Shown: positions 2,425-31,741 of the stretch, one piece after another | Position numbering within the stretch: position 1 is the first letter of the stretch | Layout: each line of letters starts with the position of its first letter | DNA from: Leptolyngbya sp. FACHB-36 | GTDB lineage: Bacteria > Cyanobacteriota > Cyanobacteriia > Leptolyngbyales > Leptolyngbyaceae | Reading direction: 5' to 3' | Length of the DNA: 33,028 nt | Assembly: GCF_014695955.1 (NCBI RefSeq) | Contig: NZ_JACJPG010000591.1 | Location: 1 to 33,028, forward strand | Made by a program: the position numbers and the translations under genes | The notes under the pieces: generated by a model | Databases searched by the model: none | What the model was told of the DNA's origin: nothing | What the model saw: only the letters and a program-made list of their open reading frames with translations

Positions 2425-2516
2425 GGAGAGATGGCTGAGTGGTCGAAAGCGGCAGATTGCTAATCTGTTGTATGGCAGGTAACTCCATACCGAGGGTTCG
2501 AATCCCTCTCTCTCCG
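2425..2516 (+). tRNA. tRNA-Ser (anticodon GCU)
   Basis: This is a complete type II tRNA. The acceptor stem is GGAGAGA (2425-2431) with TCTCTCC (2509-2515), discriminator G 2516. The anticodon arm is GCAGA/TCTGT with loop TTGCTAA, giving anticodon GCT (reads AGC and AGU). A long variable arm follows, then T arm GAGGG-TTCGAAT-CCCTC (2492-2508). The long variable arm and G discriminator fit serine. The 3' CCA is not encoded, so it must be added by the tRNA nucleotidyltransferase. Confidence 0.96.
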
Positions 2517-29206: not shown

Positions 29207-29340
29207 AATAGCAATTCTCGCTCTGTTGAGGTACATTCGCCCCTACCCAAACCCTCCCCGTTTCGGAGAGAGAGCGAGGTTTTTCCCTTCTAGGAGGGGT
29301 AGGTTCTGGCGGCGTATCTCGCTGAATTGGAAACGCTATA
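29207..29340. mobile_element. MITE-like element, copy 2 (about 134 bp)
   Basis: It is related to the element at 8399-8494. The left end AATAGCAATTCTC has AGC at the same distance from TGAGGTACATTC (29227-29238) as in copy 1. The right end GGAAACGCTATA (29329-29340) matches GAAAACGCTGTA of copy 1. Internally, complementary CCTACCC/GGGTAGG and CCCTCCCC/GGAGGGG segments make it foldable. The right end supplies the stop and part of the last codon of the hybrid kinase. Confidence 0.55.
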
Positions 29341-31741
29341 CTGCTGCATTCGATTCCGTCTCGTAGAGGTATTTGACGGCGAGATGGTGAGCAATCTTCT
29401 CAAAAATTTCTTGAACTTTGAACGGTTTGCGAATAAAGTCATCGCAGCCCGCGGCTAACATGTCTTGACGCTGTTCAGCAAATGCGCTAGCCGTCAGAGC
29501 CAAAATTTTTGTGCGGATTGCCTCGCTGCAAGTTGTTTCAGCTTCCCAGGTCCGAATTTGCTGCGTTGCTTCGTAGCCGTTCATGACTGGCATCTGAAGG
29601 TCCATAAAAATTAGGTGAGGCTTCCAGGTCTGCCAGAGGTCGATCGCTGCCTGACCATTGACTGCCTCTCTCGGCTCAAACCCAATTTTCGTCAATAGTT
29701 TCATGAGTACCAAACGGTTTGATGGGCTATCTTCTGCAATCAAAATTCGATAGCTGGGCTGCTGAGGCGCAAGACCAATCACTTTGCCAACGATCGTAGG
29801 AGACGAATGAGACTTCAGTTCGGCTGAGGTAGCGAGGGTAGCAGAAATACAGAAGGAAAATACGCAACCCTGCCCAAGTTGGCTGTGAACGCCAATTTCC
29901 CCACCGAGTAGCTGAGCATAGTTCTGACTAATTGCCAAACCTAAACCAGTTCCTTCGTTTGCTTTTAACCCCGCTTGGGTTTGCTGAAACGGTTTAAACA
30001 ACTGCTTGACCTCATCGGGCGCAATGCCAGGTCCAGTGTCTTCAATCTCAAAGACAATGCCCAATTGGGCATTGTCTTCTCGAATTTTTAATTCTGAATT
30101 TTCAATTTCTTTGACTCGCAGCGTCACACTTCCCTGATTTGTGAACTTAATTGCATTTCCTAATAAATTAATCAAAATCTGGCGTAGCTTTCCTTCATCC
30201 GTTTTAATGATGGACGGTAAGTGAGGGCTGTACTCAAGGCTTAACTGAAGCCCTTTAGATGCGGCTCGAAAGTGCAGCATCGCTCTCAAGCCCTCTAGTA
30301 AATGGTGCAGATTAAACGTCGTTTCTTGAAACGTCAATCCTCCTGCTTCAATTTTGGACATCTCTAAGACTTCGTTAATCACGCTCAGCAGATGCTCGCC
30401 ACTGTCACCGATCGTTTGCAAGAAGTGTTGATGCTCAACGGTGAGCGTGTGATCTCGGTTGAGTAGCTGAGTGAGTCCCAAAATCACGTTGAGCGGAGTC
30501 CGTAATTCATGACTCATACGCGCCAAAAATTCGCCTTTTGCCCGGTTTGCAGCATCCGCCGCCTCTTTTGCGTGCTTGAGGGCTTCCGCTTGCTCCTGAG
30601 TCTGGGCAAACAGTTCTGCCTGCTGGACAGCAACGCCTAGTTGACTGCCGATTTGCGTCACCATTTGAATTTCAGCCGTTTGCCATTCGCGGGAACCGCT
30701 GTTTTGGTAGGTCGCAAGCAAGCCCCAGAGTTGGCTGCCGCAGAAAATAGGAATCGTGACATAGGCTCGCGCTTGTAGCGATTCCAGCAATTTCAAATAG
30801 CAGGAATCCAACTCTGTCTGATAAGTGTCTGTCACACAGCAGAGGTTGGACGTGTGGCGATACAGCCCACCCTCATTTTCTTCCAGGTAAGTATTCTGGG
30901 GTGCACCCTCTGTGTGATTGAGCGGCATAACACTAGAGTTGGACGGGTCCACTGCGACCTTAGTCGGGTGCGCAGGTTCAGCCACGGTTGAGATAGCAGC
31001 ATTCCAGCCTTGAGCAACTGACTCGGCGACCACCTGTCCGCTCCAATCGGAGTTGAACCGATAAATTAGGGTGCGATCGCATCGAATTGCCTGCCGCAAC
31101 TCTTCTGTAGTCGCCCGAAAAATGGCATCCAAATCCAAACTCTGGCGCATCCGCTCAATCACAAGTGAGGTTGCTCGTTCTCGCTCTGCCACGAGTTGGA
31201 GTTTGGCTTCCGCCGCGATGCGCTCCTGAATTTCGGTTTGCAGCACAGCGTTCGTCTGAACCAGCTCTGCTGTTCGCTCGGCGACCCGCACCTCCAGCAT
31301 CGCCTCAGCCTGCTTGCGTTTAGCGACTTCGGCTTGTAACTCCTGGTTAATTTGCTCTAGGTGCTTTGGGCTTTTGAGCGATAGAAACTGGGGCAGCAGT
31401 TCAACCAGTTGCAAGGCGGTGTAGCAAGAAACCAACCCGGTAACTGCCCGCTCTGCACCAGACAGCCAATAAGCAGGATGCCAGAGGGTCCAAATGTCGA
31501 GTAGGTGCCCCGTGCCGCAAAGGACAATGAACGCCCCAAACAGCACAAACACCCGCGAAAACGGAATATCCCCTCGCTTTCGCACAAAGTAAATCAGCAT
31601 GGCTGGAATCGAGAAGTAGGCAATAGCGATTAGTCCATCGCTAACGATGTGCAGCCACACCAGCGGAGTCTGCCACAGATAGCAATGCCCATGAGGGATA
31701 TACTGACTGGGCGACAGCAGATTCTTAACCAGTTCCAGCAT
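29336..31741 (-). CDS. Hybrid histidine kinase with ethylene-binding domain and bilin-type GAF
   Basis: The protein has 801 residues. Residues 25-120 form an ETR1-type ethylene-binding domain of three helices. At a constant offset of ten, Asp35, Tyr42, Ile45, Pro46, Ile72, Cys75 and His79 equal the ETR1 pocket residues Asp25 to His69. A coiled coil (125-190) leads to a GAF domain (about 195-375) of cyanobacteriochrome type, in which Cys314 sits at the chromophore Cys position but is followed by Tyr. Then come HisKA with His411 (MSHELRTPLN), ATPase (Asn529, DTGPG, GTGLGLAIS) and receiver (Asp714, Lys772). The closest known type is Synechocystis SynEtr1/UirS. No UirR-like partner is adjacent. 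Confidence 0.9.
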   Translation of the reverse strand: MLELVKNLLSPSQYIPHGHCYLWQTPLVWLHIVSDGLIAIAYFSIPAMLIYFVRKRGDIPFSRVFVLFGAFIVLCGTGHLLDIWTLWHPAYWLSGAERAVTGLVSCYTALQLVELLPQFLSLKSPKHLEQINQELQAEVAKRKQAEAMLEVRVAERTAELVQTNAVLQTEIQERIAAEAKLQLVAERERATSLVIERMRQSLDLDAIFRATTEELRQAIRCDRTLIYRFNSDWSGQVVAESVAQGWNAAISTVAEPAHPTKVAVDPSNSSVMPLNHTEGAPQNTYLEENEGGLYRHTSNLCCVTDTYQTELDSCYLKLLESLQARAYVTIPIFCGSQLWGLLATYQNSGSREWQTAEIQMVTQIGSQLGVAVQQAELFAQTQEQAEALKHAKEAADAANRAKGEFLARMSHELRTPLNVILGLTQLLNRDHTLTVEHQHFLQTIGDSGEHLLSVINEVLEMSKIEAGGLTFQETTFNLHHLLEGLRAMLHFRAASKGLQLSLEYSPHLPSIIKTDEGKLRQILINLLGNAIKFTNQGSVTLRVKEIENSELKIREDNAQLGIVFEIEDTGPGIAPDEVKQLFKPFQQTQAGLKANEGTGLGLAISQNYAQLLGGEIGVHSQLGQGCVFSFCISATLATSAELKSHSSPTIVGKVIGLAPQQPSYRILIAEDSPSNRLVLMKLLTKIGFEPREAVNGQAAIDLWQTWKPHLIFMDLQMPVMNGYEATQQIRTWEAETTCSEAIRTKILALTASAFAEQRQDMLAAGCDDFIRKPFKVQEIFEKIAHHLAVKYLYETESNAAV
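30051..30078. repeat. Perfect 28-bp palindrome inside the kinase ATPase domain
   Basis: The half-site AAGACAATGCCCAA (30051-30064) is followed immediately by its exact reverse complement (30065-30078). Next to it (30079-30110) is an AT-rich stretch with TTTTTAATTCTGAATTTTC, like intergenic cyanobacterial short repeats. It is translated in frame as the insert ENSELKIREDNAQLG (residues 548-562). Confidence 0.9.

Follow-up and report, generated by a model that had tools for sequence, protein, structure and literature searches.

The window, a 33,028-nucleotide stretch of DNA from Leptolyngbya sp. FACHB-36, encodes a hybrid histidine kinase that is, on balance, best read as an intact ethylene receptor with phycocyanobilin (PCB) probably attached to its GAF domain and its light switch disabled. 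What can be read directly is the architecture, the intact motifs, the residue changes, their rarity, and their derivation within a clade whose members bear a second cysteine in an insert loop of the GAF domain (the insert Cys). The sequence belongs to a single, fragmented assembly (82% complete, 4.26 Mb, 692 contigs).

Domain architecture of the kinase

A sequence-only reading of the window had picked out the open reading frame, leaving its strand unstated. The frame is real: it runs intact from an ATG at 31741 down to 29336, and the stop-to-stop frame is only two codons longer, extending before the ATG. A plus-strand reading of the same interval contains many stops and was rejected. Pfam assigns an ethylene-binding domain (EBD), a GAF domain, a HisKA-HATPase_c kinase core and a receiver to the 801-aa protein (Table 1) and finds no PAS domain in it, in agreement with the earlier remark that, unlike SynEtr1, this protein lacks a PAS and has a fused receiver. 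The Pfam GAF match covers aa 203-372 (1.2e-18), and the 61 aa between the EBD and GAF matches recur as the same spacing in relatives L006, L007 and L066. Everything expected of a hybrid histidine kinase is intact: His411 in HisKA, the N and G boxes of HATPase_c (NLLGNAIKF, DTGPGI, GTGLGLAI), and Asp714 and Lys772 in the receiver.

Table 1. Features located in the window, with the evidence for each
Feature	Position	Strand	Evidence
Whole ORF, 801 aa; EBD-linker-GAF-HisKA-HATPase-REC hybrid histidine kinase	29336..31741	-	Translation, Pfam
EBD (Pfam ETR1_N), aa 27-122	31376..31663	-	Pfam 1.4e-42; whole-genome search, identical coordinates
Stretch with the seven ethylene-binding residues D35, Y42, I45, P46, I72, C75, H79	31505..31639	-	ETR1 alignment; conservation in 109 EBDs
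EBD-GAF linker, aa 126-195, putative coiled coil (from sequence)	31157..31366	-	Pfam; no PAS
GAF domain, aa 196-378, cyanobacteriochrome (CBCR) lineage	30608..31156	-	Pfam; sequence and structure matches
Family insert loop, aa 255-283	30893..30979	-	Alignments to relatives
Ser269 (TCT), insert-Cys position	30935..30937	-	Cys in 104/105 relatives
Asn283 (AAT), position of the Asp of D-T-Y-L; equivalent by alignment to AnPixJg2 Asp291	30893..30895	-	Asp in 101/105 relatives
Cys314-Tyr315, canonical bilin Cys and family-wide Tyr	30797..30802	-	Cys in 100/105, Tyr in 105/105 relatives
HisKA, aa 401-467, phospho-acceptor His411 in SHELRTP	30341..30541	-	Pfam 1.4e-19; conservation in relatives
HATPase_c, aa 515-633	29843..30199	-	Pfam 8e-25
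Receiver (Response_reg), aa 666-783, phospho-acceptor Asp714, Lys772 in RKPF	29393..29746	-	Pfam 8e-23
tRNA gene	2425-2516	+	Rfam 63.7 bits; sole Rfam match in the window

The EBD scores 144 bits against profile PF25487, whose curated cut-off is 27. Alignment with ETR1 places all seven ethylene-pocket residues at a constant offset of +10, as had been claimed, from their ETR1 counterparts (D25, Y32, I35, P36, I62, C65 and H69). Since these residues are near-universal among the 109 EBDs collected, the set represents the ordinary state of any intact EBD. The EBD is under strong constraint: its identity to the orthologue in genome G011 (93/106) is the highest among the domains of the protein, and dN between the two is 0.07 against a dS of 1.67, dS being mostly saturated across the domains so that mainly dN is usable. 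Among the 109 EBDs, the Asp of the ethylene site is Asn in six, and the Pro, Ile, Cys and His of the site are each replaced in isolated members; by sequence, these are possible non-binding candidates.

Orthologues and genomic setting

Close orthologues in genomes G011 and G012 have the EBD-GAF-HK-REC layout and likewise no PAS. In both (L148:5169-9233 in G011; L149:3-4024 in G012) a REC-HK gene, likely a partner, comes immediately after the EBD-GAF hybrid kinase gene. No REC-HK gene lies beside the window gene; the best REC-HK match in the parent genome is on contig C162, adjoining an MHYT-PAS-GAF hybrid kinase whose GAF is from the same family. The two orthologues also run about 90 aa past the receiver (SEWIEQLYQAAIQGND...; C-terminus of L148:5169-7838), a stretch that has no Pfam match. 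A truncation scar in the window gene was considered and rejected: the gene ends after its receiver, and no remnant of the ~90-aa extension lies below the stop. The guess, made from spacing, that relatives of about 1050 aa contain a PAS was also dropped, as L009 (1072 aa) carries a second GAF domain and no PAS.

A whole-genome search of the parent genome gave four EBD matches. The same genome encodes an EBD-HK protein, an EBD-HK-REC-HK protein and one EBD protein cut by a contig end (L145, L146 and L147), the last combining, by eye, an EBD with a PAS-like stretch. It also encodes an MHYT-PAS-PAS-GAF-GAF-HK-REC protein (L144, G000:C162) with an insert-Cys, Cys-Tyr GAF. Judged by the translations of its genes, for example chlorophyll-synthase-like and HisF-like ORFs, the window is cyanobacterial.

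The GAF domain belongs to a family with insert-Cys-type motifs

The best sequence matches of the GAF domain among solved structures are the CBCRs NpR6012g4 (6bhn, 2.7e-46) and AnPixJg2 (5zoh and 3w2z, 7.8e-45), with Slr1393g3 (5dfx), another CBCR, also among them. A Foldseek search of the PDB with an AlphaFold model of the domain returned AnPixJg2 at the top (5zoh/3w2z, TM 0.78/0.82 on the target); the model, built with 33 relatives, has a mean pLDDT of 72 and falls below 50 in the loop (model residues 66-103), too low to define the pocket geometry. Cys314 aligns with AnPixJg2 Cys321, the canonical bilin-attachment Cys.

For comparison we used 105 other non-redundant GAF domains of the same family, 47 of them EBD-linked in the stretch examined. 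The family pattern in these relatives is a conserved Cys within an insert loop, often as C-x-x-K, followed by D-T-Y-L and then Cys-Tyr. For insert-Cys CBCRs, a loop Cys that forms part of a loose C-x-x-R/K motif has been described, together with a DTYL motif (PMC5240096). The family thus looks like an insert-Cys-type CBCR lineage that is widely fused to EBDs, an assignment made by motif, the tree covering the collected relatives and not the characterised UG1, UG2, VO1 and UB1.

Against this family background, most of what had been flagged as GAF alterations is ordinary. The earlier reading was correct that Cys314 occupies the canonical bilin position and that Tyr follows it, but its view of Tyr in place of His as unusual was rejected, Tyr315 being fixed in every relative. 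The polar insert at about 250-285 is the family's own loop, equal in length to that of the relatives, and the supposedly shortened segments are no shorter than theirs: the loop aligns with close relatives without gaps.

Two further features of the family were noted. A Cys-Cys pair at aa 301-302 (30836-30841, minus strand; Y-C-C-V in relatives) is widespread among the EBD-linked members and has been retained in the window protein; it lies on a strand near the pocket, where by sequence either Cys could possibly serve as an alternative thiol near the bilin. Separately, five members without an EBD in the stretch examined (L022, L239, L259, L271 and L082) have replaced the canonical bilin Cys (by R, T, N, A and P) and kept the following Tyr; in four of them the insert Cys is still present, so that they show the opposite pattern to the window protein.

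Two near-invariant GAF residues are replaced

Thirty-nine GAF sites are at least 95% fixed in the 105 relatives, and the window protein departs from them at two only, C269S and D283N. It therefore lacks both the second Cys and the D-T-Y-L Asp of the insert-Cys CBCR subfamily, having Ser269 and Asn283 instead. The chance that two random departures among the 39 sites would strike exactly this pair is ~0.0013, a figure to be read loosely, as the pair was spotted before the counting. In all 47 other EBD-linked members, insert Cys, Asp, canonical Cys and Tyr are present. The five other proteins that depart in these columns are members without the canonical Cys, and the window protein alone among the members collected has kept the canonical Cys and lost the insert Cys.

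The suggestion of an unusual light signal or a lost pigment was therefore reasonable in that the GAF domain is altered, although the grounds given for it, the Tyr and the insert, are family-wide. At the level of sequence the alteration is real but consists of C269S and D283N, which the earlier reading missed, and these two changes argue for a disabled or rewired photocycle in a GAF domain that has kept its bilin-attachment Cys.

The insert loop carries most of the divergence

In the GAF tree, the window protein is nested among members that bear the insert Cys (support 94/90), which makes the loss of this Cys a derived change on the protein's own branch. A tree of the EBD, kinase and receiver groups it with L008, L006 and L007 (100/97). 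Only 6 of the 29 loop residues are identical to those of the sister orthologue, and dN in the loop is 0.69-0.81 to the sisters, as compared with 0.16 between them; for the rest of the GAF domain the values are 0.18 and 0.14. The terminal branch for the GAF domain is 0.37 in the window protein and about 0.15 in each of two sisters, whereas over the remainder of the protein the corresponding lengths are 0.20 and 0.24-0.25. Relative-rate tests on the whole GAF domain were not significant (p 0.11 and 0.28). Decay across the entire GAF domain was not supported as an explanation, since the divergence is confined mostly to the loop.

Proposed function and alternatives

We propose that the protein is a cyanobacterial hybrid kinase, anchored in the membrane and acting as an ethylene receptor; its binding of ethylene and of bilin, its spectrum and its signalling are all predicted from sequence. 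Ethylene bound through copper in the membrane domain at the N terminus would alter how active the C-terminal kinase is. This kinase would autophosphorylate at His411 and pass the phosphate to Asp714 of the fused receiver. In this proposal the GAF domain descends from insert-Cys-type CBCRs, which by analogy with characterised members would switch between short-wave and longer-wave states as a second thioether to the bilin forms and breaks. It would now probably retain PCB on Cys314 and sit in a red/orange-absorbing state with weak or no photoswitching, so that the light input is disabled and the ethylene input retained.

The expectation for the GAF domain comes from laboratory mutants. UG1 (Mbr3854g4), UG2 (Mbl3738g2), VO1 (NpF2164g3) and UB1 (NpR1597g2) have an insert loop before D-T-Y-L and a canonical Cys, as here; the window protein differs from them in having Ser at the insert Cys and Asn at the Asp. 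When the insert Cys of UG1 and UG2 was changed to Ala, PCB was still bound, absorption lay at 620/592 nm and no further significant light-induced change was seen, and variants of the Asp bound PCB with lowered photoconversion (PMC5240096). By analogy, the window GAF is expected to carry PCB on Cys314, absorb red/orange light and switch weakly or not at all. There are two caveats to this analogy: (i) Ser and Asn are not the replacements made in those proteins (Ala/Glu) and (ii) the motif described for insert-Cys CBCRs is CH (PMC5240096), as opposed to Cys-Tyr in the window family. The parent genome encodes one PcyA-family bilin reductase, and a supply of bilin is therefore expected.

The main rival to a disabled light input, and an unlikely one in our estimate, is a retuned photosensor, that is, a single-Cys red/orange-sensing CBCR that still photoswitches and combines ethylene with light of another colour than that sensed by its relatives. 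Single-Cys CBCRs can photoswitch well, for example those of the red/green type such as AnPixJg2. The closest solved structures by sequence and fold, the red/green CBCRs AnPixJg2 and NpR6012g4, have one canonical Cys, as here, and this is in keeping with retuning, as are the preserved canonical Cys and GAF core with normal evolution outside the loop, the restriction of change to two near-fixed sites, and the presence of Cys301 and Cys302 near the pocket in sequence. The pocket itself points the other way: AnPixJg2 has Asp291, Trp289 and His322 where the window protein has Asn283, Pro281 and Tyr315 plus a long insert loop, so that Trp289 has no counterpart and the Asp that bonds the nitrogens of bilin rings A, B and C (PMC8156171) is lost as well. 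The near light-inertness of the UG1 and UG2 insert-Cys mutants (PMC5240096) also speaks against a working single-Cys switch.

Loss of two pocket residues and a loop divergence suggestive of local relaxation could instead mean that the GAF domain carries no pigment and acts as a structural or dimerisation relay in a pure ethylene sensor, as in plant ethylene receptors; the GAF domain of ETR1 itself is non-pigmented. We consider this quite improbable, given that Cys314 and Tyr315 are kept, although loss of this Cys does occur in the family, in five relatives, and that UG1 and UG2 mutated at the insert Cys or the Asp still bind PCB (PMC5240096). Finally, sequencing or assembly errors could account for the codons of Ser269 and Asn283 or for the loop: the genome assembly is fragmented and each change is possibly one base from the family codon (TGT to TCT, GAT to AAT). 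Against such an artefact, which we regard as very improbable, the loop carries many further substitutions with its reading frame and length intact, and the remaining protein is conserved. A PCB-bearing ethylene receptor with a disabled light switch thus remains our preferred reading. As a more tentative proposal, the protein would be a co-receptor losing one of its senses, in which dual-Cys photochemistry has been specifically disabled while the EBD and kinase stay constrained, giving a bilin-bearing, light-deaf receptor that parallels the non-pigmented plant GAF.

Relation to known receptors

SynEtr1 (UirS/PixA, Slr1212) of Synechocystis PCC 6803 is a bifunctional ethylene and light receptor (PMC6682694, PMC7700396). 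Like the window protein, it joins an N-terminal EBD, a CBCR GAF and a histidine kinase in one protein; it differs in having a PAS before the GAF and a separate receiver, Slr1213, whereas here there is no PAS and the receiver is fused. GeiEtr2 of Geitlerinema PCC 7105 is an EBD-PAS-PAC-GAF-kinase-receiver protein of 1025 aa with the seven ethylene residues conserved (PMC6682694). Compared by this description, it shares the EBD, GAF, kinase and C-terminal receiver with the window protein and differs in the PAS/PAC annotated between EBD and GAF. The EBD-CBCR kinase class is already known from SynEtr1 and GeiEtr2, and so, since GeiEtr2 was published with one, is a receiver fused to an EBD-GAF kinase. 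The GAF domain of SynEtr1 is of the DXCF type, whereas that of the window protein is insert-Cys-derived and lacks the second Cys. Arabidopsis ETR1 and ERS1 also combine an EBD bearing the seven residues with a GAF domain and a kinase, ETR1 having a receiver as well; unlike them, the window protein has a CBCR-lineage GAF with a bilin Cys and a bacterial kinase core. In the open-access papers searched we found no description of the insert-Cys, Cys-Tyr EBD lineage or of a member with the double loss.

Significance

Plant ethylene receptors are thought to be of cyanobacterial ancestry, and cyanobacterial EBDs often adjoin light-sensing GAF domains. The analysis delineates a broad group of EBD hybrid kinases from cyanobacteria, 47 plus the window protein, that carry an insert-Cys-type Cys-Tyr GAF. 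Within this set the window protein is a natural counterpart of the UG1 and UG2 laboratory mutants, lacking exactly the two residues of the dual-Cys photocycle, and together with intact sister receptors such as L006 it forms a clean pair for the separability of ethylene and light inputs in one kinase. It may represent a naturally occurring intermediate between a sensor of both ethylene and light and a sensor of ethylene alone.
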